Shown piece by piece: positions 32,346 through 58,381 of a stretch of 64,000 nt of DNA. Source of the stretch: Arthrobacter sp. SDTb3-6 (GTDB lineage Bacteria; Actinomycetota; Actinomycetes; Actinomycetales; Micrococcaceae); NCBI RefSeq assembly GCF_013376095.1, contig NZ_JAAMFN010000001.1, positions 124,001-188,000 on the forward strand, written 5' to 3'. The translations under genes were made by a program, and so were the position numbers. Position 1 is the first letter of the stretch; every line of letters begins with the position of its first letter. The notes under the pieces were generated by a model. That model did no database searches and had not been told where the DNA came from. It worked only from the letters and a program-made list of their open reading frames with translations.

Positions 32346-32355
32346 CACCGACGCT

Positions 32356-32401
32356 CGGTTGCAACCGGGGCACTTTTCCCCGACGCCCGGTTGCAACCGG
32401 G
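32356..32401. repeat. Paired palindrome element, copy A
   Basis: Two palindromes, CGGTTGCAACCG at 32356-32367 and CCCGGTTGCAACCGGG at 32386-32401, have their cores exactly 32 bp apart. The 20-base spacer GGGCACTTTTCCCCGACGCC is related to the spacers of the other two copies. It sits between the ino1 stop and its terminator. Confidence 0.85.
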
Positions 32402-32404
32402 TCG

Positions 32405-32455
32405 AAAAGGGCGGATGCTCCCTCACTTTTGTGAGGGGGGCATGCGCCCTTTTTT
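32405..32455. terminator. Bidirectional terminator after ino1
   Basis: AAAAGGGC...CCCTCAC, a TTTT loop, and GTGAGGG...GCGCCCTTTTTT form a stem of about 20 bp with small internal mismatches. Both A-run and T-run are present, fitting the convergent genes ino1 and the nuclease-like gene. Confidence 0.88.
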
Positions 32456-32469
32456 GATGTGGGACCGGT

Positions 32470-33420
32470 TCAGCTGCCCGTGGCGAAGCCGGCGACGATG
32501 GCCGGGTCCGTCCACGCGTTCCGCAGGGCCGCCTTGATCCGCCGGACGGCGCCGTCGTAGCCGTCGGCAAGGTCATGGTTGTCAAGGACCAGGACGGTCC
32601 AGCCGGCGTTGCGGAACGCTGCATCGCGGCGTTGGTCGCGTTTGGCCTGGAAGGGGTCGTCGTGGGTGCCGCCGTCGTACTGGATGGCGATCCTCCGCCG
32701 CCTGTAGCCGAGGTCGGCGGACGGGGCGCTCGGCGTCGGCCACAGGGACAGCTGCAGTTCCGGCTCCGGCAGGCCGGCGTCGAGCATGGCCAGCCGCAGC
32801 AGCGTCTCCGGCGCGGAATCGGCGCCCACCCGCATCAGCCCCAGTGCATCCCTCGCGCGGACGATCCCCTGGAGGTTTTTGTGCCTGGCGGTCATGGCGC
32901 GCAGTGAGGCGGGGGTGGCGTAGGGACCGGTGCGCCCCTCAAACACGGCGCGGGGGACCCGGATCAGCTGGTCGCCCATGCACACAAGGTTGGGCAGGGG
33001 GAGGTGGCGGGCCAAGTCCAGCCAGGTGCGGGCGCGGGTGCTGATCCGCAGCCCATTGACAGTTTCCACCTCGTCATCGTAGGCGAGAAGTGTATGGCCG
33101 GTGATGCCCCTGCGGCGGGTTTCGGGCAGTTTCCGGGGCTTGCTCACATGCAATTCCGCAGCGTCCTGGAGCCAGGGCGGGAGGATGAGTCCGTGCAGTT
33201 GTGCCGCCGTCGTATGGGAAATCCAGGCGCCGGGCGTGGCGGCACAAAGTGCGCGGGCTGCCTCGGACAGCGTGAACTCCCACGTCGCCGGCCTGTACAG
33301 TCCATACCCTGCGGCCATGAAGTTCGAGCCCCGCAGCCGGTCCCGGCTGACGCCCAGCGATTCGGCCTCGCCGAGCGTGAACGGTACGTCCGGGAGCCGG
33401 GATTCCTCTGGCGTGTCCAT
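32470..33420 (-). CDS. DUF559/Vsr-like nuclease-fold protein
   Basis: The 316-residue product has an N-terminal half resembling the AbiEi-like helix-turn-helix proteins of actinobacteria (FTLGEAESLGVSRDRLRG, AWISHTTAAQLHGL) and a C-terminal half of the Vsr/DUF559 PD-(D/E)xK kind: SAPETLLRLAMLDAGLPEPE, ADLGYRRRRIAIQYDGGTHD, RDAAFRNAGWTVLVLDNHDL. In the usual core ExD/ExE position it has IQYDG, so activity is uncertain. The ATG at 33420 has GGAG 4 bases upstream and a CATACT hexamer. Two inverted copies of the paired palindrome flank it. Function unknown. Confidence 0.7.
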   Translation of the reverse strand: MDTPEESRLPDVPFTLGEAESLGVSRDRLRGSNFMAAGYGLYRPATWEFTLSEAARALCAATPGAWISHTTAAQLHGLILPPWLQDAAELHVSKPRKLPETRRRGITGHTLLAYDDEVETVNGLRISTRARTWLDLARHLPLPNLVCMGDQLIRVPRAVFEGRTGPYATPASLRAMTARHKNLQGIVRARDALGLMRVGADSAPETLLRLAMLDAGLPEPELQLSLWPTPSAPSADLGYRRRRIAIQYDGGTHDDPFQAKRDQRRDAAFRNAGWTVLVLDNHDLADGYDGAVRRIKAALRNAWTDPAIVAGFATGS

Positions 33421-33538
33421 GGCTCCAGTATGGCCGCTGCCGGGCACCCGCCGCAGAAGTTATCCACAGCTCGGCGCCATCTGGAGCGGCCATGGGCGCA
33501 GACGTTGCGGACGTTGCGGAAGGGTTTGGAAACAGTGC

Positions 33539-33586
33539 CCCGGTTGCAACCGGGCGTTGGCGGAAAGTGCCCCGGTTGCAACCGGG
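33539..33586. repeat. Paired palindrome element, copy B (inverted relative to A)
   Basis: CCCGGTTGCAACCGGG occurs at 33539-33554 and again at 33571-33586, a period of 32 bp. Read on the minus strand, the spacer and right flank match copies A and C. Adjacent at 33501-33520 is a short tandem GACGTTGCG repeat. Confidence 0.85.
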
Positions 33587-33594
33587 CGTTTGGC

Positions 33595-35280
33595 CTAGGG
33601 GGCGAGCCAGAGGGTGGTTTCTGCCGGGACGGTACCGGTGGCCGGCACGCCGGAGCTGAGCACCACCTTGGCAGGGTCGACGCCGGAGGGCACCAGTGCG
33701 GGCGCGGCACCAAAGTTGGTCAGCACCTCCCAGCCGTTGGGGCGCCGGTAGTGCACCACGGACGCCGCCGGTTCGCTCAGCCAGGCCAGCGACTCGTCGG
33801 TTTGCAGCTTGCGCCGCCAGCCCAGCGCGGCGCGGTACATTTCCAGGGTGGAGCCCTCGACGCCGTCCTGTGCGTCGGCCGCGTGGCCGGCAAACCAGTC
33901 CGGCTGCGGCAGCCACGGGGTGCCGCCAAAGCCGAAGTTTGCCGCATCCCGCTGCCACGGCAGGGGCACCCGGCAACCGTCGCGGCCCTTCACCTTGTGC
34001 TGCGTGCGGAACCAGGTCGGGTCCTGCAGCGAGGCCTCCGGCAGGTCGGCCACCTCGAACAGCCCCAGCTCCTCGCCCTGGTAAAGATAGGCGGAGCCGG
34101 GCAGGCCCAACATGAACAGCGTTGCCGCCCGGGCCCGGCGCAGCCCGCGCCCCAGGTCAGCCGGGGGAACGGTGCCGCCGGCCAGCAGCCAGGCCTCGAG
34201 GTCTTCGAGGGTGCTGCCGTCCGGCAGGGCGTAGCGGGAGGCGTGGCGGACGACGTCGTGGTTGGAAAAAACCCACGTCGAGGACGCCCCGGACGCCTCG
34301 GCCTCCACGAGGCACTTCTCGGCGATGGCCCGGAACTCGGCGGCGTCAAACGGGGCCTGCAGGAGGTCGAAGTTGAAGGCCTGTCCGAGTTCGGTGGGGC
34401 GGGCGTACATGAGGCGGCGGTTGGTGAACGGCACCCAGGCCTCGGCCACGGCGGCCTTGGGGGGATCGTATTCGTTCAGGACGCCGCGCCAGCCGGTGAA
34501 GATGTCGTGGACGGCGTCGCGGTCAAAAAGCGGGTCCGAGCCGTCGTCCACGAGGATCTCCAGCTGGGGCTTGGACCGCAGCGGCAGGGACATGTCCTTC
34601 GCCAGCCCGTGGGCCACGTCCACGCGGAAGCCGTCCACGCCGCGGTCCGCCCAGAAGCGCAGGGTGGTGTGGAAGTCCGCCTGCACCTCGGGATGGTCCC
34701 AGTTGAAGTCGGGCTGCTCGGTGGCGAACAGGTGCAGGTACCACTGGCCCGGCCTGCCCGCGTTGGGGCCGGCCTGTTCCACGACCCGCGTCCAGGCCCC
34801 GCCGCCAAAGTGCGAGGGCCAGTCCGACGGCGGCAGCTCGCCGTTGACCCCCAGCCCGTCCGCGAAGTGGTACCGCGCGCGTTCGGGCGAGCCCGGGGCG
34901 GAGCCGAGGGCGGCCTGGAACCAGACGTGCCGGTTGGAGGAATGGTTCGGGACGACGTCCACGATCACCTTGATGCCGGCGTCGTGGCTGGCGGCGACCA
35001 TGGCGTCGAAGTCGTCCAGCGTGCCCAGGCGGGGATCGACGTTGCGGTAGTCGTCGACGTCGTACCCGCCGTCAGCCAGCGCCGAGGGGTAGAACGGGCT
35101 CAGCCAGATCGCGTCGATGCCCAGCGCCGAGAGGTAGCCCATGCGGGCCGTGGCCCCGGGCAGGTCGCCGATGCCGTCGCCGGTGGCGTCCGAAAAGCTG
35201 CGCGGGTAGATCTGGTAGACGGCGGCCTGGCGCCACCAGCCGGCGTCCGGATGGGTGGAGGGGGATGCGGGAACGGTCAT
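33595..35280 (-). CDS. GH13 alpha-glucosidase
   Basis: The 561-residue enzyme belongs to the oligo-1,6-glucosidase/alpha-glucosidase group of GH13 and would release glucose from short alpha-glucans or maltose-type sugars in the cytoplasm. Motifs in order: AAVYQIYPRSFSDATGDGIG, DVVPNHSSNRHVWF, GFRVDVAHGL (nucleophile Asp), VAEAWV (acid Glu) and FSNHDVVRH (third Asp). There is no signal peptide. The ATG at 35280 follows GAGAGGA by about 10 bases. It is divergent from the inhibitor-like gene, sharing a 118-base gap. Confidence 0.9.
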   Translation of the reverse strand: MTVPASPSTHPDAGWWRQAAVYQIYPRSFSDATGDGIGDLPGATARMGYLSALGIDAIWLSPFYPSALADGGYDVDDYRNVDPRLGTLDDFDAMVAASHDAGIKVIVDVVPNHSSNRHVWFQAALGSAPGSPERARYHFADGLGVNGELPPSDWPSHFGGGAWTRVVEQAGPNAGRPGQWYLHLFATEQPDFNWDHPEVQADFHTTLRFWADRGVDGFRVDVAHGLAKDMSLPLRSKPQLEILVDDGSDPLFDRDAVHDIFTGWRGVLNEYDPPKAAVAEAWVPFTNRRLMYARPTELGQAFNFDLLQAPFDAAEFRAIAEKCLVEAEASGASSTWVFSNHDVVRHASRYALPDGSTLEDLEAWLLAGGTVPPADLGRGLRRARAATLFMLGLPGSAYLYQGEELGLFEVADLPEASLQDPTWFRTQHKVKGRDGCRVPLPWQRDAANFGFGGTPWLPQPDWFAGHAADAQDGVEGSTLEMYRAALGWRRKLQTDESLAWLSEPAASVVHYRRPNGWEVLTNFGAAPALVPSGVDPAKVVLSSGVPATGTVPAETTLWLAP

Positions 35281-35398
35281 GGCAGGAATTCCTCTCGTCG
35301 TATCCGTGACGTTACCAACTTCGGCGCCGCCCTGGCGGGAACGTGTCCCCGCCCGCCGCCATGTCGGTGGGCTACCATGGCAGAAATGCAAGGAGGCG

Positions 35399-35920
35399 GT
35401 GGACCTGGGACGGTTGTGGAACCCCGCGGTGTTCGACGCCGCCGCCTGGGCCGGCGTGGTCCTGGCCGTCCTGCTGGCGGCCGGGTTGGCGGCGTGCGCG
35501 CCGGTGCCGGCGCTCCCGGGCACGGGCGGCCGGCCGCCGGCTTCCGGAATGCCGGTGCAGCCGCCGGCTGCGGCCACGGACCTGTCCATCACCGTGACGG
35601 CGTCGCCGGGGGCGAAGCCGCTGGACTACCGGCTGGTGGTGGAGAACGGCAGGCCCGGACCGGAAACAACTGTTCCGGACCCTGCCGCCGCCGTGGCGGC
35701 GCTGGAGCGCTACGGGCAGGCCATCTTCTTCCCCGTTCCGGGGCCGCCCCGGATGTGCAGCGACGTGTACAGCGGCCCGCAGGTGGCGGTGGTGCGCGGC
35801 GTGTTCAAGGGCCGTGACGTCCGCTCCACGTTCAAGCGGACCGACAGCTGCGAAACCGCGCGCTGGCAGGCCCTTGCGCCCTTGTTCGGCGCCGTGGCCG
35901 GCGGCACCGGCGCCACATAG
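35399..35920 (+). CDS. SSI-like (subtilisin inhibitor family) lipoprotein
   Basis: The 173-residue product has a signal peptide ending in lipobox LAAC (Cys33), a Pro-Gly-rich linker, and from about residue 60 a domain that I align by eye to the Streptomyces subtilisin inhibitor family: LSITVTAS, then MCSDVYSGPQVAVVRGVFKG and SCETARW. Cys120 and Cys151 match the reactive-site disulfide of SSI; the other SSI disulfide is missing. The P1 position is Asp122 rather than Met. AGGAGG is very close (2 bases) to the GTG, so the start is uncertain. It converges on a subtilase gene. Confidence 0.7.
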   Translation: MDLGRLWNPAVFDAAAWAGVVLAVLLAAGLAACAPVPALPGTGGRPPASGMPVQPPAAATDLSITVTASPGAKPLDYRLVVENGRPGPETTVPDPAAAVAALERYGQAIFFPVPGPPRMCSDVYSGPQVAVVRGVFKGRDVRSTFKRTDSCETARWQALAPLFGAVAGGTGAT

Positions 35921-36022
35921 CCGGTCCGGCCCGGCGCCGGGCCGGACCGGACCGGCCGTTAAAGTGCAGGGTGCCTGACTGGGCCGATAATGCATGGGCC
36001 GTTCCGGCCCGGCCAGGACTGC

Positions 36023-39000
36023 CTAGAGTTCCGGGTTTGGCTGGGCCGGTGACTCGGGCAGCACCAGCGGCTGGTGCTGCTTGTAAGGTTTGTCCTTCCC
36101 GGGCCCGCCCGTCCCCTGGTCCGGCACCACTGCGGTGCCGTCCGGGGAAACGACCACGGAAACGAACGTCTGGGTCCCGGTGCCGCCGAAGGAGACGCGC
36201 CCAATGTAGGAGCCCGGGTCCAGGCCGGTCCAGGCCAGGACCACCGCCCCCGACTTGCCGTTGGCCAGCTTCAGCGGGTTGGGCGTCACGGTCGCGTTGC
36301 CCGTCTCCGCGCCCAGCACAGCGGCGTCAACGGTGGCCTTCACGGCCGCCCCGTCGGCGCTGGAGTAGAGGTTCGCCAGGATCGTGTACGTGCCGGGCGC
36401 CGGGTCGGCCAGCGAAAGGGTCTCGCTGGAGGACCCGGTTCGGACGTCGTAGTACGATCCTGCCGGGTTGAAGACCACCATGTCGTAGTCGGCCGCCGGA
36501 TCCGAGGAGATGACGGAGAACTTCGCCAGCTTGGCCCCGGCCGGGACCTGGACGGTCTTGAGGAAGTTCGACGGGCCGTCCGCCACCTCGAGCGGGCCGG
36601 GCACCAGCGAGATCTCCGAGGAATCCGCCTTCGACAACCCGTCGAGCGTCACCTGGATGGGGGCATTGGTGCCGGACACGACCGGGATGTTTCCGGTGCC
36701 GGTGCCGCCGGCGGAGGTGAACGCCACGTCCTTGGCCGCGATGACCGGCAGCGGCCGTACGGCGACGGGCGAGGCGACGTGCTTGCCGGCACCCTCCCAG
36801 ACCAGGCTGCCCATGGCGAACTTGCCCAGCGGTGCCGTGGCGTTTTCGAAGGTGACCGTGAAGGTTTGCTGCTGGCCCGCCTTGGCGAAGTTCAGCACGG
36901 AAGGGGTGACCTTGACGTTCACGCCGGGCACCTTGGCCGTGGCCCGGTACAGGCCCGGTGCCAGAGCCGTCACGGTACGGGTGACGGTGACCTTGCCGGC
37001 CAGGCTGCCGAGGGCAAACGAGGCCAGGTTCATGTCGCGGGGCGCCGTGCTGCCGAGCCCCGGGATGCCCAGGTCCAGGCCGGTGCCCTGGATGAACCTG
37101 AGGTAGTCGTTGGTGCCGGCGTCGTAGACCAGGCCCGGGTCGGGCACCTTCGCGACGGCCACCTGGCCGGCGCCGGTTGCGAAGACGTCGGTGTTTTTGC
37201 TGCCGTCGGCATTGACGACGCCGGACGCCGTCGTCATCATGGCCGACTTGACCGTGGCAGGGGACCAGGTGGGGTGCCGGGACAGGACGAGGGCCCCGAA
37301 GCCGGCAACATGCGGGGACGCCATGGACGTTCCGGACATCATGCCGAACCGGGCGCCGTCGGAACCGATGGGTGAGACCCCGGCCAGCACGCCAACGCCG
37401 GGGGCGGCGACGTCGGGCTTGAGCAGGTCCGAATCCGTGGCCGTCAGCGGGCCCCTGGAGGAGAAGCCGGCGATCTGCGGCTGCGGCTCAACGGGCAGGC
37501 CCGTCGTGTCTTTGTTGACCAGGGCCACCAGGATGTCCGGGGTGGCCGTGACCTTGTCCTTGATCTGCTGGCTGGCCGGCGGGTTCACGTGGACCGTGGG
37601 CACCGAGTGGAGGTCAAGGTCCTCGGACCCGGGGGTGATGTTGGCCAGGATCATGCCGATCCCGCCCGCCCGCTTCACTTCGGCGCTCTTGGCCACCCGG
37701 TCAAAGACGCCGCGGTCGCAGACAACGACCTTGCCGGCGGCCTTGGCGGCGTCCAGCGAATCGGGGCCGCAGAGTTCCGGCGTGGCCGCGCCCGCTGCTG
37801 CCGCATCGGCGGCGAGGACAACGTGGCTGGCCGGGACTTCATGGTCCATCATGCTGGCACCGCGGAACTTGGTGCCGTCGGAAAATGCCGCCGTCCCCTG
37901 CAGTTCGGAGCTGAAGGTGGTGGCCGCGACGGTGGTCAGCCACGGGGCGCCGTGGTTGACCGTGCCTGCGGCGGGGCCGGAGTTGCCGGCGGACGCGGCC
38001 ACAAAGACGCCGGCCGAGGCTGCGGACAGGAACGCCAGCGCCACGGGGTCGGTGATGGTGGCCGTGCTGCCGGAGATGGAATAGTTGAGCACGTCCACGC
38101 CGTCCAGGATGGCCTGGTCAATGGCCGCCACGGAGGCGGAGGTGTAGCAGCCGCCCGTGTTGGGGTCGTCGTCCTCCCAGCAGATCTTGTAGATGGACAG
38201 CTTCGCCGCCGGGGCAATGCCGCTGGTGGTGCCCATGTCCTTGCCGCCGACCGTGGCATGGATGTTGGCGTTGCCGGCCGCGGTGCTGGCCGTGTGCGTG
38301 CCGTGGCTGCCCACGTCCACCGGCGAAAGCAGTTCCTGTGGCGCCCGGTGTTCCGGTGCCACGTAGTTCAGGAAGTCTTCGGCGAAGTACCGTGCGCCCA
38401 GGACCTTGGAGTTGCAGGCGGAGCCGTCAAAGGCGGCGCCGCTGCCCGTGCCCGGCTGGCACTCGCCGAGGAACGTTTCGCCGTCGGCCTTCAACATGGC
38501 GATCTTGCCGTCCGGGGTGCGGTAGGGGACCCCCACCTGCGGTGTGCCCGTCAGCGGCTTGACGTCATCGCCGGCGAAGAACGGGCTCGACGGCGTATAC
38601 CCCGAGTCGATCACGCCCACCACGACGCCCTTGCCGGCGTTCCCCTGTCCGCCAAAGGCGGAGTTCCAGGTGCCGTTCGGCCCGCTCAGGCCCAGGAAAT
38701 CGGTGGTGGAGTAGTCCGGTGCGTTCTCCGTGTCCGGGGCAACCATCAGGACTTGCGGGTCCCTGGCCAGCTTGAGGGCCTGTGCGGCGGACAGTTCCGC
38801 CGAGAAGCCGTTGAGGGCGGCGGTGTACGTCCGGTTGATCTTGACATTTTCAGATTTGGCCACGGCCGACTGCCTGGTGCGCAGGTGGTCCTGGTACTTC
38901 TTCACGGCCGGCTTGCTGGCATCGAGCTTGCGGCCCTTGTCCGGCTTGGTTGCGGCCAGCCCGGCAGTGCCGCCCGCATAGGTCGCGGCCGGCCTTTCGG

Positions 39001-39202
39001 CCAGGACCACAATGTAGCGGCCCGCCTGGTAGGTGGCCGGGCCAGGGTTTTTGGCCTGGACGGTGGATGCCGTGGCCGGCAGCGGGCCGGCCGTGGCCGG
39101 CAGCGCCCCCACGGTGGCCAGGAGCAACGGAAGGCCTGCGGAAATTGCCGCAGCCCTCCTGAATCCCGGCCTGGATAACAGAGCTCTCCCCAAGGTTTTC
39201 AC
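36023..39202 (-). CDS. Secreted S8 subtilase with PA domain
   Basis: The product (1059 residues) is a secreted serine protease. In order: signal peptide (to about 40, ending PATA), an I9-type inhibitor propeptide (YIVVLAERPA to LMVAPD), the catalytic domain with Asp199 (GVIDSGY), His300 (GSHGTHTA) and Ser626 (GTSMASPHVAG), a protease-associated insert between His and Ser (ELCGPDSLDAAKAAGKVVV), and C-terminal Fn3-like regions. I chose the GTG at 39202, which gives MKTLGRALLSRPGF; ATGs at 39268 and 39286 would add 22-28 unlike residues. A palindrome lies upstream. Confidence 0.92.
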   Translation of the reverse strand: MKTLGRALLSRPGFRRAAAISAGLPLLLATVGALPATAGPLPATASTVQAKNPGPATYQAGRYIVVLAERPAATYAGGTAGLAATKPDKGRKLDASKPAVKKYQDHLRTRQSAVAKSENVKINRTYTAALNGFSAELSAAQALKLARDPQVLMVAPDTENAPDYSTTDFLGLSGPNGTWNSAFGGQGNAGKGVVVGVIDSGYTPSSPFFAGDDVKPLTGTPQVGVPYRTPDGKIAMLKADGETFLGECQPGTGSGAAFDGSACNSKVLGARYFAEDFLNYVAPEHRAPQELLSPVDVGSHGTHTASTAAGNANIHATVGGKDMGTTSGIAPAAKLSIYKICWEDDDPNTGGCYTSASVAAIDQAILDGVDVLNYSISGSTATITDPVALAFLSAASAGVFVAASAGNSGPAAGTVNHGAPWLTTVAATTFSSELQGTAAFSDGTKFRGASMMDHEVPASHVVLAADAAAAGAATPELCGPDSLDAAKAAGKVVVCDRGVFDRVAKSAEVKRAGGIGMILANITPGSEDLDLHSVPTVHVNPPASQQIKDKVTATPDILVALVNKDTTGLPVEPQPQIAGFSSRGPLTATDSDLLKPDVAAPGVGVLAGVSPIGSDGARFGMMSGTSMASPHVAGFGALVLSRHPTWSPATVKSAMMTTASGVVNADGSKNTDVFATGAGQVAVAKVPDPGLVYDAGTNDYLRFIQGTGLDLGIPGLGSTAPRDMNLASFALGSLAGKVTVTRTVTALAPGLYRATAKVPGVNVKVTPSVLNFAKAGQQQTFTVTFENATAPLGKFAMGSLVWEGAGKHVASPVAVRPLPVIAAKDVAFTSAGGTGTGNIPVVSGTNAPIQVTLDGLSKADSSEISLVPGPLEVADGPSNFLKTVQVPAGAKLAKFSVISSDPAADYDMVVFNPAGSYYDVRTGSSSETLSLADPAPGTYTILANLYSSADGAAVKATVDAAVLGAETGNATVTPNPLKLANGKSGAVVLAWTGLDPGSYIGRVSFGGTGTQTFVSVVVSPDGTAVVPDQGTGGPGKDKPYKQHQPLVLPESPAQPNPEL

Positions 39203-39270
39203 GAGTGATGTGGACCTTTCGACAGGAACCGCCCGGCGTTTTTGCCGGGACAGTTGACGTTGCGCCATAA

Positions 39271-39286
39271 ATGACAAAGTTGTCAT
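39271..39286. promoter_or_regulatory. Palindrome upstream of the subtilase gene
   Basis: ATGACAA-AG-TTGTCAT is a 16-base palindrome with perfect 7-bp arms, about 70 bases before the chosen start. It looks like an operator for a dimeric regulator controlling the protease; the regulator is unknown. Confidence 0.45.
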
Positions 39287-39364
39287 CTAAATGCGGGTAC
39301 TTGTCACACGCTACAGCGTTGCCCGGTTTTGTGATAGGGGACACGCCTGCCCGTCAGTGGCTGG

Positions 39365-40669
39365 TCAGCAGCCCGGCGGGGCCACGTATTGGTAGGTCAG
39401 CGAAAGGTCGTAGCTGGCCATGGTCTGCGCGGCCGTGTTTTCCCATCCGAACGACTCGGCAAACACGGAGGCGGCCCGTCCCATGTCCTTGCGGGTCTGC
39501 GGGAAGTCGTGGAGCGAGGCGATGGCTTCGGCCCAAAGCCTGGAGGAGCGGCCGTCCACCAGCAGCCCCGTGCGGCCGTCGCTGACGGCACGCGGCAGTC
39601 CGCCCACGTTGGTGGCGACGACGGCGGTCCCGCACGCCTGTGCTTCCAACGCCACCAGCCCGAAGGACTCGCTGGCCGACGGCACGGCCACCAGGTCCGC
39701 GCTGCGGTACCAGTCCGCCAGTTCCGCGGCGGTGACGGGCGGGAGCACGGCGGCGGTGCCGGCGAGGCCGGCCTCCGCCACCAGCTGGCCGAGGTCGTAC
39801 TTGTCGTTGCCGCTGCGGGCGCCGAGGAAGGTCAGCCGCAGCGGAATGTCAGGGCGTTCGGCGCGCAGCAGCTTCGCCGCCTTGACCAGCACATGCGGGC
39901 CCTTCAGCCGTTGCAGCCGGCCGGCAAACACCACATGGAAGTCGGCCGGGGCAATGCCGCGCAGCTGGCGTGAACGGTCGCGGAAGGCCGGCTTGAACAC
40001 CTTCAGGTCCACGCCGGGGGAGACCACGTCAATGCGCTGCTCACAGCCGTCGTAATGTGCCTCCAGCTCCGCGGCCTCGGCCGTCGTGTTGGCAATCAGG
40101 CGCGTGGCCGCAGCCACGATCTGCTGTTCGCCCTCTTCCCTGATGCCCGGTTCGGCGGCCTGGCCCGAGGGCAGGTGCTTGTTCTTCACCCGGGCCATGG
40201 TGTGCATCGTGTGGACCAGCGGCAGGTCAAGCCCGCGGGCCACCAGGATGCCGGCCATCCCGGATACCCAATAATGGGAATGCACCACGTTGACGGGGAC
40301 GGGCCCGGGAAGGCCGCCGCCCGCACCGGCCGCCGGCCAGGCCGGGGACGGCTGGGTGGAAAGGTGGCGCATGTGGGCGGCAACGGCGTCGGCCATCTGG
40401 GGGACCAGCTCCGGCAGCGACTCCTTGGACACCTTGCCGAAGGGGCCCGCCGTCACATGGTGGACGTTCACGCCGGGCGCCAGCGCCACCGTGTCCGCCA
40501 GTTCCAGGGACGTCCGGCGCGTATAAATGTCAACCAGGATGCCCGCCGCGGCCAGCTCCAGGGCCAGCTGGCGGACGTAGACGTTCATGCCGCCGGCGTC
40601 GCCCCCGCCCGGCTGGTCCAGGGGGGAGGTGTGGAGGGAGAGCATGGCAACGCGTCGAACCTGGTGCAC
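39365..40669 (-). CDS. mshA: D-inositol-3-phosphate glycosyltransferase MshA
   Basis: MshA joins GlcNAc from UDP-GlcNAc to inositol-3-phosphate, the first committed step of mycothiol synthesis. The 434-residue GT4 enzyme has GGGDAGGMNVYVRQLALELA near the N-terminus, VVHSHYWVSGMAG, FAGRLQRLKGPHVLVKAAK and the ESFGLVALEAQACGTAVVA motif. The start GTG at 40669 follows AGGAAAGG. ino1 and glmS/glmM in this window supply the two substrates. It is divergent from alr. Confidence 0.94.
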   Translation of the reverse strand: MHQVRRVAMLSLHTSPLDQPGGGDAGGMNVYVRQLALELAAAGILVDIYTRRTSLELADTVALAPGVNVHHVTAGPFGKVSKESLPELVPQMADAVAAHMRHLSTQPSPAWPAAGAGGGLPGPVPVNVVHSHYWVSGMAGILVARGLDLPLVHTMHTMARVKNKHLPSGQAAEPGIREEGEQQIVAAATRLIANTTAEAAELEAHYDGCEQRIDVVSPGVDLKVFKPAFRDRSRQLRGIAPADFHVVFAGRLQRLKGPHVLVKAAKLLRAERPDIPLRLTFLGARSGNDKYDLGQLVAEAGLAGTAAVLPPVTAAELADWYRSADLVAVPSASESFGLVALEAQACGTAVVATNVGGLPRAVSDGRTGLLVDGRSSRLWAEAIASLHDFPQTRKDMGRAASVFAESFGWENTAAQTMASYDLSLTYQYVAPPGC

Positions 40670-40801
40670 TGGCGTGCCTTTCCTGCCGGGCCTGGAAATT
40701 TATCCTTTCCATCTTCGCACTGCGGTGCTGGAATCACCGCGCCCCGGCGGCCGGGCCGCCCCCTGGCCGTCCGGCCGCGCGGGGTCGGCGGCGCGAAGGC
40801 C

Positions 40802-40807
40802 TAAAAT
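40802..40807 (+). promoter_or_regulatory. -10 element of probably leaderless alr
   Basis: TAAAAT ends 6 bases before the alr GTG in an otherwise GC-rich region. No Shine-Dalgarno and no clear -35 are visible. Confidence 0.55.
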
Positions 40808-40813
40808 GAAGCT

Positions 40814-42004
40814 GTGAATCCCACCGTTGAGCCCCTGCCCGTCCACGGCCACGTCCCGGAACGGCAAGCCGTCATCAACCTTTCCGCCATCGCCCACAAC
40901 ATCGGGACGCTGCGTTCCATTGCGGCCCCGGCCAAGCTCATGGCCGTGGTCAAGGCCGACGCCTACGGCCACGGCATGCTGCCCGTGGCCCGCACCGCCC
41001 TGGCCGCGGGGGCGGACTGGCTGGGCACGGCCCACGTCTCCGAGGCCCTCCAGCTCCGCGCAGCCGGCATTGACGCGCCGGTGCTCGCCTGGCTGCACAC
41101 CCCGTCCACCGACTTCGCGGCAGCCGTCGCCGCCGGCATCGACGTGGGCTGCTCCGGCTGGGAGCTGGAACACATTGCCGCCGCCGCGCGCGCGCAGGAA
41201 CGCCCGGCACGCATCCACCTGAAGATTGACACTGGACTGGGGCGCAACGGCTGCTCCATGGCCGGGTGGGATGCGCTGGTCTCCGACGCCATCGCCTACC
41301 AGGACGAGGGGCTGCTGCGCGTGGTGGGCGTCTTCAGCCACCTGGCCGTGGCCGACGAGCCCCACCGGCCCGAAACGGACGCCCAGCTCGAGGTGTTCCG
41401 CGAGGCCGTGGCCATTGCCGAGGACGCCGGCGCGGACCTGGAAGTGCGCCACATTGCCAACACGCCGGCCACGCTGTCCCGCCCGGACGCACACTTTGAC
41501 CTGGTCCGCACGGGCCTGGGCATCTACGGCCTCTCGCCGTTTGAGGACCGCACCTCCGCCCAGCTGGGCCTGGTCCCGGCCATGACGCTGCAAACCCGCG
41601 TGGCCCTCTGCAAGGACGTGCCCGCCGGCCAGGGCGTGTCCTACGGGCTGAATTTTGTCAGCAACCGGCCCACCACCCTGGGGCTGATCCCGCTGGGGTA
41701 TGCGGACGGGATTCCGCGCGTCGCCACGGGCGGCCCCGTCCGCGTCAATGGCACCACCTACCCCGTGGTGGGCCGGATCGCCATGGACCAGATGGTCATT
41801 GACCTTGGCCCCGACGGGCGTGCAGGCTTCAGCGGTGCCGAGGTGCCCGGCTCGGCGCTTGGCTGCGCCGCCGTCCTCTTTGGTGACGGGTCCGACGGCG
41901 GTCCCCTCGTTGAGCAGTGGGCCGAAGCCGCCGGGACGGTCAACTACGAGGTGGTGACCCGCATCAGCGGGCGCGTCCCGCGCAGCTATGTGGGCGGCGC
42001 CTGA
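40814..42004 (+). CDS. alr: Alanine racemase
   Basis: Alr makes D-alanine for peptidoglycan. The 396-residue PLP enzyme has the cofactor lysine Lys47 in MAVVKADAYGHG, the barrel segments GIDVGCSGWELEHI and RTGLGIYGLSPFED, and the C-terminal domain PLGYADGIPRVATGG with VGRIAMDQMVIDLG. It overlaps tsaE at TGATG. The pairing with tsaE-tsaB-rimI-tsaD is widespread in actinobacteria. Confidence 0.96.
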   Translation: MNPTVEPLPVHGHVPERQAVINLSAIAHNIGTLRSIAAPAKLMAVVKADAYGHGMLPVARTALAAGADWLGTAHVSEALQLRAAGIDAPVLAWLHTPSTDFAAAVAAGIDVGCSGWELEHIAAAARAQERPARIHLKIDTGLGRNGCSMAGWDALVSDAIAYQDEGLLRVVGVFSHLAVADEPHRPETDAQLEVFREAVAIAEDAGADLEVRHIANTPATLSRPDAHFDLVRTGLGIYGLSPFEDRTSAQLGLVPAMTLQTRVALCKDVPAGQGVSYGLNFVSNRPTTLGLIPLGYADGIPRVATGGPVRVNGTTYPVVGRIAMDQMVIDLGPDGRAGFSGAEVPGSALGCAAVLFGDGSDGGPLVEQWAEAAGTVNYEVVTRISGRVPRSYVGGA

Positions 42005-42615: not shown

Positions 42616-42618
42616 GCT
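42613..42618 (+). promoter_or_regulatory. -10-like element before tsaB
   Basis: TAGGCT ends 6 bases before the tsaB GTG and includes the tsaE stop codon TAG. It could give an internal leaderless transcript; co-transcription from alr is also likely. Confidence 0.35.
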
Positions 42619-42624
42619 GGATGC

Positions 42625-43344: not shown

Positions 43345-43423
43345 ATGGACCTGCTGTGAATGGACCGGCTGTGAATGGAGCTGCTGCGAATGGGCCGGCC
43401 GGGAATGGGCCTGCTGTCACGGG
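43335..43423 (+). repeat. 15-bp tandem repeat at the tsaB-rimI junction
   Basis: About six units of a CCTGCTGTGAATGGA-type 15-mer run in tandem: units 1-3 are nearly identical, units 4-6 diverged. The first unit carries the tsaB stop (TGA) and the rimI start (GTG). Units 2 and 3 repeat that in-frame GTG at 43356 and 43371. The rimI product thereby gains five NGPAV-like repeats. Confidence 0.85.
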
Positions 43424-48847: not shown

Positions 48848-48861
48848 GGTGCGGCCTTTCG

Positions 48862-49659
48862 TTAGTGGCGGGCTGCAGGGGCGGCCCCGGCGCGGACCGG
48901 GCCAAAGCGCTCCAGCAGGGGTATGCGCGGCAGCACGCTTCCCTGGAAGCGGTTCCACACGCCGACGAAGAGAAGCACCGCGGCGGTGGCCGCCAGGAAG
49001 GAGGCAATGACGTCGGTGGGGTAGTGGACGCCGATGTAGAGCCTGGACCAGGCCAGGACCACGGGGACCACGACGCCCAGGATGGCAGCCAGCCTGGACC
49101 AGCGGGTGTGCCGGGCCAGGAACCAGAACGCCCAGGCAAGCCCCACGGCCAGCGCCACGTGGCCGCTGGGGAAGCTGTTGGAGCCGGTTTCCGGGGCGAG
49201 CGGGTCAAACAGCAGCGCCGGGTTGGGGCGCTGGCGCTCCACGATGGCCTTGAAGAACTGGCTGGAGAGGTACCCGGCGGCGGCCGTGCCGCCAAAGGCA
49301 ATGGCATTCACGGGGGATTTCCGCACCACCAGCAGGAACAGGCAGCACAGGGCAATGACCAGCACCGCGCCGACGGGGGAAAACACGTAGTTCAAGGTCA
49401 TCGCCAGGGCGGTCAGCACGCCGTCATGGTGCCGGCTCAGGTCCTGGTCGACGGTGAACTCGTCGGCGCTGAAACCGTGCACGTCGGTGGCCACAAAACC
49501 CAGGGTCAGGACCGCTGCGGACAGCACCACGACCCACAGGCCCCACAGCCGAAGCTGCGGCAGCACGGTCAGGCGGGTGGCCGCCCCGGACGCATGGCGG
49601 GGGGCGGCACCGCCCGGGCGGCCGTCACGGTACTGGTGGTCTGGAACAGGATGGGACAA
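48862..49659 (-). CDS. PAP2-family phosphatase
   Basis: The 265-residue membrane protein has all three PAP2 motifs: KAIVERQRP, PSGH, and SRLYIGVHYPTD. It would dephosphorylate a lipid phosphate such as undecaprenyl pyrophosphate or phosphatidic acid on the outer face. Six membrane helices are visible, after a 30-residue hydrophilic N-terminus. It is the first gene of PAP2-DedA-regulator-kinase, 14 bases before DedA. Confidence 0.92.
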   Translation of the reverse strand: MSHPVPDHQYRDGRPGGAAPRHASGAATRLTVLPQLRLWGLWVVVLSAAVLTLGFVATDVHGFSADEFTVDQDLSRHHDGVLTALAMTLNYVFSPVGAVLVIALCCLFLLVVRKSPVNAIAFGGTAAAGYLSSQFFKAIVERQRPNPALLFDPLAPETGSNSFPSGHVALAVGLAWAFWFLARHTRWSRLAAILGVVVPVVLAWSRLYIGVHYPTDVIASFLAATAAVLLFVGVWNRFQGSVLPRIPLLERFGPVRAGAAPAARH

Positions 49660-49740
49660 GTAACTCTCCGATGCGTGCGGGGACTGGGAGGCGGCCCGAA
49701 GGCCTTTCCTCCACTGTCCCGCACGGCGCTTAAGAATTCG

Positions 49741-53791
<4,051 letters not shown>

Positions 53792-53795
<4 letters not shown>

Positions 53796-54739
53796 GAGGA
53801 TTTCCTGTTCGTGATGGCGAGGAAGGCAAAGGAAAGCGCGAAGGCAATCACGGCGATGAGCACGGCCTGGGCGGCGGCGACGTTGTAGTCGTTGTAGGCG
53901 AACGCTGTGGTGTACGCGCTGAGGTTGGGCGTGTACTGGCTGTCAATGGAGGAGGAGACGGATTGCAGCACCTGGGGTTCGGCGAAGAGCTGCAGCGTGC
54001 CGATGATGGAGAAGATGGTGGTCAGGACCAGCGCCGGGCGGATCAGGGGCAGCTGGATGCTGGACGCCACCCGGACGGGGGACGCGCCGTCCATCCTGGC
54101 GGCCTCGTAGACTTCGCCGGGAATCGCCTTGAGCTGGGCGATGATGATGAGCATGTTGTAGCCCGTGTAGCTCCATGTGACGATGTTGGCAATGGACCAG
54201 AGCACCGAGTGGGGGCCCAGGAAGTCCGGCGACAGGCCAAAGGCGGAAGCAATGCTGTACAGCGGGCTCAGGCCGGGGACGTAAAGGAAGGACCACAGGA
54301 TGGTGGCGATGACGCCCGGGACGCCATAGGGCAGGAAGAACGCGGCGCGGAAAAGGCCGGGCCAGCGTGCGGAGGCGGATTCGAGCAGCAGTGCCAGAAC
54401 GGTGGCGAGCACGATCATGACCGGAACCTGCACCACGCCAAAGAGCAGCATCCGCCCGATCGAGCCGATGAAGTTGCCGTCGGCGAGCGCCTGGGCGTAG
54501 TTGGAGAAGCCGGCAAAGCCGCTGCTGATCCCCTGCTCACCAAACAGGCCGCGCCGGGTGACCTTCGTGAAGCTGGAGATGACCGCCACGATGATCGGCA
54601 GGATGAACGTCAGCAGGAACAGGGCCAGGAACGGCGCCAGCAAAAGCCAGGGCGCGCGGGTCGTGGCGCCGTTGCGCCGGCGGCGGGCCGGAACGGCAGC
54701 CGTGGCTTCGCGGCGTGCCTTGAGGGACGTGGTTGTCAT
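53792..54739 (-). CDS. Sugar ABC transporter permease (MalF type)
   Basis: The 315-residue permease has an Arg-rich N-terminus (KARREATAAVPARRRRNG), six helices, and the EAA loop EAARMDGASPVRVASSIQLP. It pairs with the downstream MalG-type subunit. No ATP-binding protein is encoded in the cluster, so a shared MsmK/UgpC-like ATPase from elsewhere must energise it. ATGA overlaps join it to the binding protein and the next permease. Confidence 0.93.
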
Positions 54740-56070
54740 GCGTTTTCCTTTCGGATGCTCAGGCCGCTGTTCTTGAAAACGGTCATGATTTGTTGTTCCG
54801 CCGTGGCGATGGAATCAACCAGCGTGGTTCCCGAGGCCTTTCTGCGGAATCCGTCGCTGAGGATGTTGAAGGACTGCTGCTGGGACGGCCACCAGGACCA
54901 GCCGGGGTTTTGCTGCAGGGAGGCCGGGGCGAAGACGTCCTGGTTGTAGTTTTGGCCGCTGAAGAACGCCGAGTGCTGCTGCCTTGACGTGCCGGTGAAG
55001 TCCGGGCTCGGGGACCAGCCAATGCCGCAGTTCTTGATCTCGGCGTCAATGCCTTCGCGGCTGGACGTCAGCCACACGGCGAACTCGAGGGCCTCGCGGG
55101 GGTGCCTGCTGTTGGCGAGCACGGCCGCCGTGGAGCCGCCGAGGTAGCTGGAGCCGTATCCGGAGGCGCCCCAGGTGGGCATCCTGGCGACCTTCCACTT
55201 GCCCTTGCCGCCGCTGATGCCTTCAATGAGTGCATCCGCCCAGCTGGCCGAGGTGAGGGAGGCGATGCCGCCGCTGCCCGCGGCCGCGAACCAGCCGGGG
55301 GAGTAGGCGCCAAAACCGGTCTGGACCAGGTCCTTGTCAATGGCGGCGTCAAAGAACCGGGCCACGGACAACGTGGCGTCGTCGGTCATGTTGATGACCC
55401 AGCCGTCCTGGTCTGCGCGGAACCACCGGGCCCCGGCCTGCTGGGCCAGGGAGGTGAAGAAGCTTGCGTCGCCCAGCGGGAAGCAGTCCAGGTAGCTCTT
55501 GGCCTTGCGCAGCTCGGCGGCGACGGCGGCCCATTCCTCCCACGTTGCCGGCGCCGTGGCGCCCACCTTGTCCAGGACGGCAGGCTGGTAGAACAAGGCC
55601 ATGGGGCCGGAGTCCTGGGGGATGCCGTAGACGCCGTTGGCGTAGCTGACCTGGTTCCACAACGTCTTGTCGTACCGGGAGGCAAAGTCGCCGGCCCCGT
55701 AGCGGTTAAGGTCCACCAGGCCGTTGACCATCATGAAGGACGGGATGACGCCGAACTCGACCTGGGCCAGGTCCGGCCCGCCGCCGGCCGCCAGGGCGGA
55801 GAACAGCTTGGGGTAGCCGCCGCTGTTGCCGCTGGGGATCCACACGGTCTTGACCTGGATGCGCGGGTTGGCCGCGTTCCACAGGTCCGCCACGGGCTGG
55901 AGGTCCTTGAGCCAGGACCAATATTCAATGGTCACCGTGCCGCCTGCTGCGGGAATGGCGGGCGCGGCATTGATGGATGTTGTTCCGGGCGTGGCACAGC
56001 CCGACAACAGGCCCAGTGCGGCAGTTCCCAAACCGGCCCGCAACAGCTGCCGTCGTGTTGCCTGCTTCAT
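54736..56070 (-). CDS. Sugar-binding lipoprotein of ABC transporter
   Basis: This 444-residue solute-binding protein delivers the sugar to the two permeases. The N-terminus has twin arginines (TRRQLLRAG) and the lipobox LSGC with Cys25, so it is probably exported as a lipoprotein, perhaps by Tat. The family 1 features are VTIEYWSWLKDLQPVADLWN, DLAQVEFGVIPSFM and NGVYGIPQDSGPMALFY. It is the first gene of the operon and lies across the operator from the TetR gene. Confidence 0.93.
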   Translation of the reverse strand: MKQATRRQLLRAGLGTAALGLLSGCATPGTTSINAAPAIPAAGGTVTIEYWSWLKDLQPVADLWNAANPRIQVKTVWIPSGNSGGYPKLFSALAAGGGPDLAQVEFGVIPSFMMVNGLVDLNRYGAGDFASRYDKTLWNQVSYANGVYGIPQDSGPMALFYQPAVLDKVGATAPATWEEWAAVAAELRKAKSYLDCFPLGDASFFTSLAQQAGARWFRADQDGWVINMTDDATLSVARFFDAAIDKDLVQTGFGAYSPGWFAAAGSGGIASLTSASWADALIEGISGGKGKWKVARMPTWGASGYGSSYLGGSTAAVLANSRHPREALEFAVWLTSSREGIDAEIKNCGIGWSPSPDFTGTSRQQHSAFFSGQNYNQDVFAPASLQQNPGWSWWPSQQQSFNILSDGFRRKASGTTLVDSIATAEQQIMTVFKNSGLSIRKENA

Positions 56071-56191
56071 CGTCGTGGCACCTCACTTCGTCATGTGGGT
56101 GCACGGGCCGGCAGTGGCATGTTTCGGGCCTTTCGGCCTTCGGGCCGGTGTCCGCGCATCCTTTTCGGGGGGATTGGGGAAAAACTACCAT

Positions 56192-56216
56192 AAATTTCGA
56201 GTGGTTACTCGAATTT
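56192..56216. promoter_or_regulatory. Operator-like palindrome between the lac operon and tetR gene
   Basis: TTCGAGT-GGTT-ACTCGAA (18 bases, perfect 7-bp arms) is flanked by AAAT and TTT in the divergent gap. On the minus strand it overlaps the spacer of a possible promoter whose -10 is TATGGT, about 110 bases before the binding-protein gene. A TetR-type repressor dimer is the natural candidate to bind it. Confidence 0.65.
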
Positions 56217-56255
56217 GACGTGGGGGAACCGCCGCGTGGGCTAAGCTGACATGCC

Positions 56256-56867
56256 ATGAGCACCCCAATGGCGGCCCGCCCGGCCAAGCGCGGCCCCTAT
56301 GCGAAGTCCAGGCAGCGGCGGGAGAGCATTGTCCAGGCCGCCCACGAGGTGTTTGCCGCGCACGGCTACCGCGGCGGGTCCCTGCAGGATGTGGCGGACA
56401 AGGTGGGAATGAGCCAGACCAGCCTGCTGCACTACTTCCGCTCCAAAAGCGAGCTGCTGCTGGCCGTTCTGCACTGGCGCGACTCAATCACCGGCGACGG
56501 GCAGCCCCGGGACCCGGAGGAGACGCTGGTGGACGCCGTGGTCCGCCAGGCGCGCTTCAATGAGACGGTGCCCGGCGTCATCGAGCTCTACACGGTGCTG
56601 TGTGCCGAGTCCATCACGGACAACCATCCCGGGCTGGAATACTTCACCGGGCGCTACGAAAAGCTGCGCGCCAGCTACCTGCGCGCGTTTTCCGCGCTCG
56701 CAGACGAAGGGCGGCTGCGCCCCGGCGTCGACCCTGAACGCGCCGCCGCGAGCCTGATCGCCCTGTGGGACGGGATCCAGACCCAGTGGCTGATGGCGCC
56801 CGAGCGCGTCGACATGGCGGGGTGCCTGCGCGACTACCTCGAGCTGGTGGTGCTGCCGGCCGGCTGA
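56256..56867 (+). CDS. TetR-family transcriptional regulator
   Basis: The 203-residue protein has the TetR N-terminal HTH: RRESIVQAAHEVFAAHGYRG, SLQDVADKVGMSQTSLLHYF and RSKSELLLAVL. The C-terminal ligand domain is not recognisable to a subgroup. It is divergent from the beta-galactoside operon with an operator-like palindrome between them, so it probably represses that operon in the absence of a sugar signal. TAAGCT ends 8 bases before the ATG. Confidence 0.92.
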   Translation: MSTPMAARPAKRGPYAKSRQRRESIVQAAHEVFAAHGYRGGSLQDVADKVGMSQTSLLHYFRSKSELLLAVLHWRDSITGDGQPRDPEETLVDAVVRQARFNETVPGVIELYTVLCAESITDNHPGLEYFTGRYEKLRASYLRAFSALADEGRLRPGVDPERAAASLIALWDGIQTQWLMAPERVDMAGCLRDYLELVVLPAG

Positions 56868-56894
56868 GGCCCGGCGGGTGGGCCCCGGTGGGGA

Positions 56895-58037
56895 CTAGTT
56901 CCCGGCCATCTCCGCCACGAGTTCACGCACGACGGCGCGCAGGTCGCCCCGGTGCGCCTCGGCGACGCGGCGCTGGCGCTGGTAGCTGGCCCCGCGGGCG
57001 ATGATGTCCTCGACGCCGGCGAGTTCCTTGGCGCAGCCCAGGCGTGCAGCCACGGGCTCCAGCTTGTTCAGCAATTCCACGGTGTGTTCGGTGACGAGCT
57101 GTTCGCGGCCGGCGGCGTCGAGGATGATGATGGCGTCCAGGCCGTAGCGGGCGGCGCGCCACTTGTTCTCCTGCACGTGCCAGGGCGGCATGGTGGGGAT
57201 GGTGCCGCCGTCGTCCAGGGTGGTGGAGAAATCATGCACGAGGCACTGCGTGAGTGCCGCGATGGAGCCGATTTCGGCCAGGGTGGACATGCCGTCGCAG
57301 ATGCGCATCTCGATGGTGCCCAGGCCCGCCACGGGGCGGATGTCCCAGCGGATTTCATTGGCCGCGTCAATGACCCCGGTGGTGAACATGTCCTGGACAT
57401 AGGATTCGTAGGCCGCCCAGTCCGGGAACTGGAACGGCAGCCCGGCGGTGGGCAGCTGCTGGAACATCAGGGCCCGCTGCGAGGCGTAGCCGGTGTCCTC
57501 GCCGTTCCAGAACGGGGACGACGCCGAGAGCGCCTGGAAGTGCGGGAAGTAGTTGACCAGCCCGTCCAGCACGGGCATGGCCTTGGAGACATGGTCCAGG
57601 CCGACGTGGACGTGTACGCCGTAAATGAGCATCTGGCTGCCCCACCACTGGGTGCGGTCCACGAGCTTGGCGTAGCGTTCCTTGTCGGTGACCGGCTGCT
57701 TGCGCGGGTTGCTGAACGGGTGGGTGCCGGCGCTGAGCAGTTCCAGCCCCAGCGGCGCCGCCGCATCGCGCAGGACGTTCAGGTTTCCGCGCAGGTCCTC
57801 GCAGCCCTCGGCAACGGCGTGGCTGACGCCGGTGACCAGTTCCACGGTGTTTTGGAGCATCTCGCCCTTGATGTGGGGGTGCTCGCCGCCGTCCATCGTC
57901 CCGGGGTGGGCCGCTTCGATGTTGGCAAAGACCTCGTTGGCGCGGGCGGCCAGTTCGCCCGTTTCCTTGTCCACCAAGGCAATTTCCCATTCCAGGCCCA
58001 GCGTAGACTGCTCGGACTGTGCGAAATTTATTTTCAC
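56895..58037 (-). CDS. YbdK-type carboxylate-amine (glutamate-cysteine) ligase
   Basis: The 380-residue product belongs to the GCS2 family of ATP-dependent glutamate-cysteine ligases. Motifs: TLGLEWEIALVDKETGEL (metal Glu), GEMLQNTVELVTGVS, GTHPFSNPRKQPVT, YGVHVHVGLDH and MRICDGMSTLAEI. In bacteria that use mycothiol its role is unclear; gamma-glutamylcysteine has been proposed as a product. I chose the GTG at 58037, which follows GGGGG. The frame is open upstream into the repeat, without conservation. Confidence 0.9.
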   Translation of the reverse strand: MKINFAQSEQSTLGLEWEIALVDKETGELAARANEVFANIEAAHPGTMDGGEHPHIKGEMLQNTVELVTGVSHAVAEGCEDLRGNLNVLRDAAAPLGLELLSAGTHPFSNPRKQPVTDKERYAKLVDRTQWWGSQMLIYGVHVHVGLDHVSKAMPVLDGLVNYFPHFQALSASSPFWNGEDTGYASQRALMFQQLPTAGLPFQFPDWAAYESYVQDMFTTGVIDAANEIRWDIRPVAGLGTIEMRICDGMSTLAEIGSIAALTQCLVHDFSTTLDDGGTIPTMPPWHVQENKWRAARYGLDAIIILDAAGREQLVTEHTVELLNKLEPVAARLGCAKELAGVEDIIARGASYQRQRRVAEAHRGDLRAVVRELVAEMAGN

Positions 58038-58381
58038 TTCGGGCGCCCCCTTTTGGCATGTGGTGGAAGTGTGCGCAAAGCGGCGAGGGTGCCGGCTGCC
58101 TTTACGATTGTAGTTCAGGCAGCCGGGCGCAAGGGCTGGATGCCGATTGTGAACAAGCCCACGCCCGCAAGTCCGGCACCCCCACCCAACGCTCGGTTGC
58201 AACCGGGGCTGTTTGGCCGGACCCTCGGTTGCAACCGGGCGCCTTTTCACCAACCCTTTCGCAGTTCCGCCGTGGCACACGGAGTGCCTGGAAGTTGTGT
58301 AGGGCTTCATTTCCGCGAAGTGGGGGAGCATTGGGGTTTGGTGCCCCGGTTGCGCGGGAGCGTTTGTTGGTCCGGCGTGGG
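58038..58381. other. 344-base gap with promoter signs and repeat copy C
   Basis: GCCGGCTGCC (58092) and GGCAGCCGGG (58118) form an inverted repeat that encloses ATTGTA at 58107-58112, a TACAAT -10 for the minus-strand ligase gene. Copy C of the paired palindrome follows at 58194-58237. I see no gene here. Confidence 0.5.
58194..58237. repeat. Paired palindrome element, copy C
   Basis: CGGTTGCAACCG at 58194-58205 and at 58226-58237 are exactly 32 bp apart. The spacer GGGCTGTTTGGCCGGACCCT and the right flank (CCTTTTCACCAACCCTTTCG) resemble those of copies A and B. Confidence 0.85.

Follow-up and report, generated by a model that had tools for sequence, protein, structure and literature searches.

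Three intergenic pairs of palindromes in a 64,000-nucleotide stretch of the Arthrobacter sp. SDTb3-6 genome (assembly GCF_013376095.1, contig NZ_JAAMFN010000001.1, positions 124,001 to 188,000; hereafter the window) belong to a family of 32-bp periodic repeat arrays that is genus-wide and occurs in species dialects. The pairs are read here, with moderate confidence, as the local dialect of modular 3'-end and bidirectional terminator arrays found throughout the genus. Exact copies of the palindrome CGGTTGCAACCG are located at 32356-32367 and 32388-32399 (array 1), at 33541-33552 and 33573-33584 (array 2), and at 58194-58205 and 58226-58237 (array 3). The two members of each pair are offset by 32 bp, and all three copies are intergenic according to our own simple codon-usage gene caller, which was used for all gene calls. 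A sequence-only reading of the window had reported these pairs, their offset and their intergenic position; that observation is right and understated, the pairs being part of a larger, orientation-biased 3'-end repeat system. At the best-tested locus the array centre looks like a bidirectional terminator.

An array is built of a single 32-bp unit or of several in direct repeat; it begins shortly past a stop codon and runs away from the gene. Between convergent genes, the arm from each side often meets the other at a hairpin formed by two facing half-units with a 2-4 nt loop. In the proposed function, transcription would be ended behind single genes and, where genes converge, from either side, with the hairpin stopping RNA polymerase and the tandem units supplying extra pausing or fold-back sites, palindromic neighbours pairing into a stem followed by a T-run. 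Units would be gained and lost in 32-bp steps, and homogenization over the chromosome would make the dialects turn over jointly.

Arthrobacter are environmental bacteria, and dispersed bacterial repeats are usually attributed to a transposase or left as junk. Here the gene ends of a whole genus carry repeats with one fixed period, the letters of which change together over the chromosome. The arrays provide a natural experiment on the homogenization of non-coding repeats in bacteria, and raise the question whether phased repeats are able to stop or insulate transcription.

Copy number and structure of the 32-bp unit

The window's own genome (G000), a 4.31-Mb draft in 144 contigs, was compared with 22 genomes of other species of the same genus. 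It contains 53 exact copies of CGGTTGCAACCG, 29 of which are exactly 32 bp from another exact copy; the reversed pattern used as a control occurred once. The pattern GGTTGCAACC-N(18-26)-GGTTGCAACC gave 16 exact pairs in G000, with a repeat distance of 32 bp in all 16, so that the enrichment beyond three loci on which the earlier suggestion of a family depended was found. A 74-base composite query returned 108 matches in G000 at E <=10, both palindrome strands being counted, and profile models returned 103-107 unit matches. The spacing is likewise kept in other copies: across five genomes, 102 of 109 same-strand neighbouring units are 32 bp apart, four are 33 bp apart and three are further apart. 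The 53 exact cores, distributed over many loci, bear out the dispersed family with 32-bp spacing that had been suspected from three copies.

Units from 29 G000 sources (the window and 28 loci) were aligned, giving 98 units at the threshold used. The order within a unit is R-A-C-(G/C)-C-Y, a 12-base core, GGGG(C/G), two free bases, a T-run mostly of 3-5, and a C-rich stretch. Roughly half of the aligned G000 units have CGGTTGCAACCG as core, and the rest have CCCGCGCAACCG, CGCTCCCGATTG or others; by core variant, 60 CGGTTGC and 16 CCCGCGC coexist in this genome with others. The core is palindromic in only part of the dialects. The unit is defined not by the palindrome but by the frame RAC(G/C)C-core-GGGG(C/G)nnTTTT, with the core as the species dialect. 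Parts of the related 20-base spacers described earlier are conserved over a wider range of the genus than is the palindrome itself.

In G000, 16 arrays have units on both strands; in every one of them the plus units lie to the left of the minus units, with a single inversion per array. Among 44 two-arm arrays in this plus-then-minus order, the centre is <=40 nt long in 42, and in 30 of these 42 the half-units are 2-4 nt apart. The array loci that were read are gaps between called genes, apart from one weak match inside a predicted gene (L043, position 5961).

Several G000 contigs start inside or beside an array (L044 in contig C62, L060 in C86 and L065 in C101, and also C80 near position 54), and the flank of L044 is common to L045; because of this, arrays seem to break or duplicate assembly ends.

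Location and orientation relative to genes

Among 28 gaps with an array, the flanking genes are convergent at 15, co-directional at 12 and divergent at one. The 146 gaps without an array at the same loci comprise 13 convergent, 106 co-directional and 27 divergent gaps, and the convergent enrichment (15/28 vs 13/146) has a Fisher p of 2.9e-7. In 25 of 31 arrays a called stop codon lies 4-23 bp from the outermost core, and in the remaining six the distance is 33-160 bp or there is no called gene nearby; a 32nd cluster, consisting of the one weak match in a predicted gene, was left out of this count. The first unit points away from the gene at 79 of 89 array-bearing gene ends in five genomes. The four exceptions in G000 include arrays in which a fused unit is symmetric (L040, L041) or which are closer to the other gene of the gap.

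Distribution in the genus and dialects

The exact pair was sought in a collection with one genome per species (84,980 species, the window's own genome perhaps excluded) and its only carriers were A. silviterrae DSM 27180 (G009) and A. wenxiniae AETb3-4 (G022), apart from two unrelated metagenome-assembled genomes with a single match each, taken as chance. The exact spacer pattern is present in four of 295 genomes of the NCBI family Micrococcaceae, all four in this genus. A profile model trained on G000 (R1) found units in six of the 23 genus genomes, and the loci retrieved with it show the same frame with other cores. Confinement of the family to these six genomes was rejected as a dialect bias of R1, both by a second model and by model-free period scans.

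The second model (R2), built from seven genomes, found units in 18 of the 23 genomes at E <=0.05. Counted among at most 150 scored candidates per genome, its matches numbered at least 151 in G011, 103 in G000, 80 in G009, 71 in G022, 68 in G006 and 52 in G017, down to one. Five of the 23 genomes had no match, and three of these (G007, G012 and G019) nevertheless contain arrays of 32-bp period whose dialects are different, AACGCCGCATCAC and GACGCGGTATCAC among them. The core thus differs between species, with CGGTTGCAACCG, CGCTCACATACG and CCTGCAGATCCG among the dialects, and the 32-bp period recurs across the genus. In a wider family sample of 178 genomes, searched with stricter filters at E <=0.01, 12 had a match: six in the genus (1 to 54 matches) and six outside it, with one match each at E 0.0017 to 0.0094. 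The single matches outside the genus are slightly above the nominal E-value expectation, three of them coming from a single genus.

A self-similarity scan of 171 regions behind genes, most of them picked as orthologs of G000 array loci, gave lag 32 in 94 regions, 64 in 37, 33 in eight and 31 in five. Other lags between 18 and 69 occurred in <=3 of the 171 regions, and shuffled sequence gave one region at lag 32. In the cysS and hisF regions of the 17 genomes outside the best-sampled six, lag 32 was found in 10 of 34. In DNA that had not been picked for arrays, nine RACGC-anchored period-32 pairs were found in 380 kb of the genus vs none in 384 kb of other genera. Seven lag-32 signals of one model-free scan were inspected by eye, and five were arrays and two were unrelated repeats. 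In 63 model-free units from 13 genomes, where ACGC is present by construction as the anchor, the positions conserved beyond the anchor are [GT]CA at 10-12 and G at 19 (0.90), and at positions 25-27 the most frequent base is T (0.70, 0.60 and 0.59).

Retention at orthologous sites and concerted change

Orthologous gene ends of the 29 G000 loci were sought in G022, G006, G009 and G011, and 97 of 105 matches were read. The loci were picked for the presence of an array in G000, and the presence rates hold for that set only. Units were searched with a profile in which the core columns, except the two outer ones, were unweighted; it found two units in 125 shuffled regions. The array is kept at 60 of 96 orthologous gene ends (17/27 in G022, 17/28 in G006, 16/20 in G009 and 10/21 in G011). 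The number of units varies at a fixed site: the end of the alpha-amylase-family gene has two in G000, G022, G009 and G011, and one in G006. At hisF, the stop codons abut or overlap in G009 and G022, and in G000 (199 bp) and G006 an array separates them.

Core identity, given as means over 200 draws of one unit per locus and genome, is 0.678 for different loci within a genome, 0.586 for a locus compared across genomes and 0.558 for unrelated pairs. When genome labels were permuted within loci (one draw), none of 200 permutations reached the observed value. The effect is strongest in G000 (0.789 vs 0.622) and G011 (0.654 vs 0.500), and small in G022 (0.685 vs 0.660). On these comparisons, the cores evolve in concert across the genome and do not track the locus. 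The sister species G006 and G022, placed by a cysS and hisF tree, have CCTGCAG and CGGTTGC, respectively, as main cores, and CGGTTGC is still present at some G006 loci, where a change of dialect looks to be in progress.

Hairpins and proposed transcription termination

The centre of array 1 can form a long hairpin (32405-32455) with a minimum free energy of -39.9 kcal/mol (z -7.75). Aligned over five species, four of its 16 stem pairs show compensatory changes, three of the four in G011, and 96 % of the cells are paired; one of 500 shuffles did as well. A stable hairpin, compensatory changes scored over five sequences, and a T-tract past a stop codon occur together at 32350-32455. The shape looks like that of an intrinsic terminator that could be read from both sides. 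A terminator scan gave one match, at 32433-32452, which is weak alone, with 1 found vs 1.2 expected in the window.

The 3' end of hisF was compared in all 23 genomes. Seven have a 32-bp array and seven an unrelated hairpin with a score >=18, and none has both; two others have a weaker hairpin, one of them beside an insertion-sequence-like stretch, and seven have neither. This suggests that array and hairpin have interchangeable roles at hisF. A related long hairpin (GCAGTTGTTG / CAACAACTGC) stands at the hisF array site in G011, G014 and G021 (L265, L272 and L266), and a stretch behind hisF in G012 (L262) has the look of an insertion sequence.

Within the unit, the mean internal hairpin is -10.3 kcal/mol in G000 vs -6.8 in both G011 and G001. 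When the window copies were folded, neighbouring cores of the palindromic dialect could pair into a long stem that is followed by the T-run of the second unit. Tandem pairs compared with mononucleotide shuffles gave mean z values of -3.9 in G000, -3.2 in G022, -2.1 in G009, and -1.0 in both G006 and G011. Because two neighbouring palindromic cores can pair and the folds of the palindromic dialect are stronger, the palindrome may be a local improvement and not the founding feature. Two weak signs of pairing were obtained: swapping whole right halves between units costs 0.3 kcal/mol, and the positions 2-24 hairpin outdid 59 of 60 permutations made over all genomes and 51 of 60 made within genomes, a signal that linked dialect halves would also give. 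The Rfam 15 covariance models had no match at five array loci on both strands at E <=0.1.

Several results weigh against termination as the function of the arrays. The simple terminator scan of the window did not stand out over expectation. Over all loci, the arms of the centres match only slightly better than permuted arms (21/2000), and at the seven variable positions the value is 44/2000, or 233/2000 within genomes; a 2-4 nt loop is common (30 of 42 short centres) although arm covariation is weak, and a terminator centre of this kind at most other arrays is a possibility. No clear RNA-pair covariation was found inside the unit, swapping right flanks leaves the folding energy unchanged, and the non-palindromic dialects (G006 and G011) barely beat shuffles as tandem pairs. 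The plus-then-minus order is broken by an array of one relative (G011, locus 9). In the hisF comparison the convergent partner gene may differ between genomes, and at 29 loci a hairpin score >=14 was reached by 6 of 36 orthologs without an array vs 34 of 89 with one; the idea that hairpins generally replace lost arrays was not upheld beyond hisF. Finally, a plain terminator has no need of a fixed 32-bp period. Phased DNA binding would account for a constant period under changing letters, but so would the expansion of an array by whole units.

Three RNA structures were tried and rejected. A spacer hairpin of the form GGGG..CCCC folded better in all 60 permutations, a result that also counts against the terminator reading. 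A single-unit hairpin acting as a terminator gave an empty consensus fold over 73 units, with the right-flank swap neutral, and against a long RNA duplex of the left with the right arm, core identity between opposite arms (0.719) did not exceed that with units at other loci in the genome (0.726).

Alternative explanations

The arrays could be selfish or neutral DNA resembling repetitive extragenic palindromic (REP) sequences and bacterial interspersed mosaic elements (BIMEs), spread by transposition or gene conversion and tolerated only past stop codons, so that the likeness to a terminator would be a by-product. We regard this as a possible but clearly less probable account than a terminator array. 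Similar units occur at many unrelated loci with dialects homogenized within genomes, the number of units differs between orthologous sites, and arrays are present or absent at the same site, as at hisF, where G009 and G022 have no gap and G000 and G006 have an array. However, G000 has no REP-associated tyrosine transposase (RAYT) and the corresponding domain, Y1_Tnp, is found in only 2 of 23 genomes; 60 of the 96 orthologous gene ends in the four relatives still have an array, and the orientation relative to the gene is strict (79/89), which would not be expected of random insertion. The specific proposal of a REPIN, that is, paired palindromes moved by a RAYT, is not supported: G000 lacks Y1_Tnp, and units of the same arm are repeated directly. 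A REP-like element of some other sort, mobile or gene-converting, may be at work instead.

The arrays may instead be phased sites for a DNA-binding protein, such as a roadblock terminator, an insulator or a nucleoid protein, with the dialect co-evolving with the protein. The earlier remark that 32 bp is about three helical turns retains its appeal, since sequences change under a constant period: lag 32 is found in 94 of 171 regions across dialects and non-harmonic lags in <=8. The nine RACGC-anchored period-32 pairs of the genus, with none in other genera, and the [GT]CA, G and TTT blocks that are conserved besides the ACGC anchor without clear RNA covariation, point the same way. On the other hand, several core variants occur within one genome, as with the 60 CGGTTGC and 16 CCCGCGC of G000, and a period can be retained by tandem duplication alone, and we consider such a protein unlikely. 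Equally doubtful is the more specific idea of a putative trans-acting factor that would read the 32-bp phased units and end or insulate convergent transcription, the set of sites changing dialect with the factor. If it were true, close relatives would carry mutually foreign gene-end codes at the same loci.

A tandem operator for a regulator of neighbouring genes, the other explanation offered by the sequence-only reading, has in its favour the inverted-repeat cores at helical spacing. It is contradicted by position and very improbable: arrays are placed behind stop codons and directed away from the gene, preferentially in convergent gaps (15 of 28, with one of 28 divergent). The five neighbouring genes in the window are of unrelated families. 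Sites like the attC sites of integrons and DNA uptake sequences were both set aside on position and copy number.

Comparison with known repeats

REPs are described in PMC2817692 as short palindromic intergenic sequences that are grouped in BIMEs in alternating orientation. The G000 repeat is dispersed, extragenic, palindromic and present in many copies, as are REPs and BIMEs in the broad sense, and like those of enterobacteria and pseudomonads, its short palindromic units form composite intergenic arrays; the number of units varies in the Arthrobacter arrays too. Unlike the alternating REPs of BIMEs described there, the Arthrobacter units are direct repeats within an arm with one central inversion. 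Further differences are the exact 32-bp period, the lack of a RAYT in G000, and a core that changes while the frame stays. The REP super-families carry a GTAG or CGTC tag at one end, according to PMC3733652. GACG, the reverse complement of CGTC, precedes the core in part of the units and AACG in others (position -6: A 29, G 21, C 2; n=52).

As in REPINs, the visible unit in G000 is two palindromes at a fixed spacing. An inverted REP pair as the mobile unit was not seen, 102 of 109 same-strand neighbours being 32 bp apart and each of the 16 two-strand G000 arrays having one inversion; runs of up to five direct repeats and the many loci kept by descent also differ from REPINs, as does the lack of Y1_Tnp in G000. 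A search with Y1_Tnp (PF01797) for the RAYT that such an element would need gave no match in G000 and matches in 2 of the 23 genus genomes (G011 and G017); the array-bearing G000, G009, G022 and G006 are all without a PF01797 match. As a control, PF01797 was found in 5 of 14 named genomes. The single Y1_Tnp genes, which may be IS200-like or RAYT genes, are L325 (G017) and L326 (G011), with E values of 1.8e-38 and 1.3e-32.

Bidirectional intrinsic terminators of convergent genes are a general notion. The Arthrobacter arrays resemble them in lying between convergent stop codons, in a symmetric short-loop hairpin, and in the A-tract and T-tract of the window copy; they are unlike ordinary terminators in that the hairpin is flanked by 32-bp phased direct repeats which are concerted over the genome. 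DNA uptake sequences have lineage dialects and occur as inverted pairs in terminators, and the arrays share with them the lineage-specific dialects and the inverted placement at gene ends. The arrays differ in having about 100 units in G000, at gene ends in the loci read, and several cores per genome, and we know of no clustered tandem period in uptake sequences.

No description of the 32-bp array family was found in the open-licence papers searched, including the available parts of PMC12306157, PMC3733652 and PMC2267715. The sole mention of Arthrobacter in those parts is an A. livingstonensis row in a palindrome-count table of PMC12306157, the tool of which may have counted such units without naming them.

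Features in the window

The coordinates of the array parts and the bordering genes are given in Table 1. In array 1, the ATGCTCCCTCAC arm of the centre hairpin is in phase, at +32 from unit 2. As a correction to the first description, the copy at 33539-33586 (array 2) is on the minus strand in unit orientation.

Table 1 Array parts and bordering genes in the 64,000-nucleotide window
Feature	Position	Strand	Remarks
Array 1, unit 1 (GACGCT-CGGTTGCAACCG-GGGCACTTTTCCCC)	32350..32381	+	4 bp past stop of myo-inositol-1-phosphate synthase-like gene
Array 1, unit 2	32382..32413	+	exactly 32 bp after unit 1; right end runs into hairpin
Array 1 centre, long hairpin	32405..32455	.	stem ~20 bp, loop TTTT 32427-32430, A4 at foot, T6 after
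Myo-inositol-1-phosphate synthase-like gene	31296-32345	+	borders array 1
Array 2, stop-codon-proximal unit	33559..33590	-	adjoins stop of alpha-amylase-family gene
Array 2, second unit	33527..33558	-	
Alpha-amylase-family gene	33595-35280	-	borders array 2
Array 3, unit 1	58188..58219	+	
Array 3, unit 2	58220..58251	+	
Array 3, opposite-arm degenerate unit, variant core CCCGCGCAACCG	58333..58364 (core 58347-58358)	-	past stop of THUMP-like-domain gene
THUMP-like-domain gene	58382-59617	-	borders opposite arm of array 3

Outside the window, an unrelated hairpin stands between the two arms in place of the usual half-unit centre at L083/L089 (G022) and L102 (G011), and at L110 (G011) the end of the array passes abruptly into a stretch that looks like an insertion sequence. 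A second repeated element of 3' regions, with a motif like CCCGCATTATSTGCACCACCGA and its inverse, was seen at L324 from position 5469 (G006) and in the ortholog regions of locus 7 (G006 and G022) and locus 14 (G006); one copy is tandem at 31 bp.

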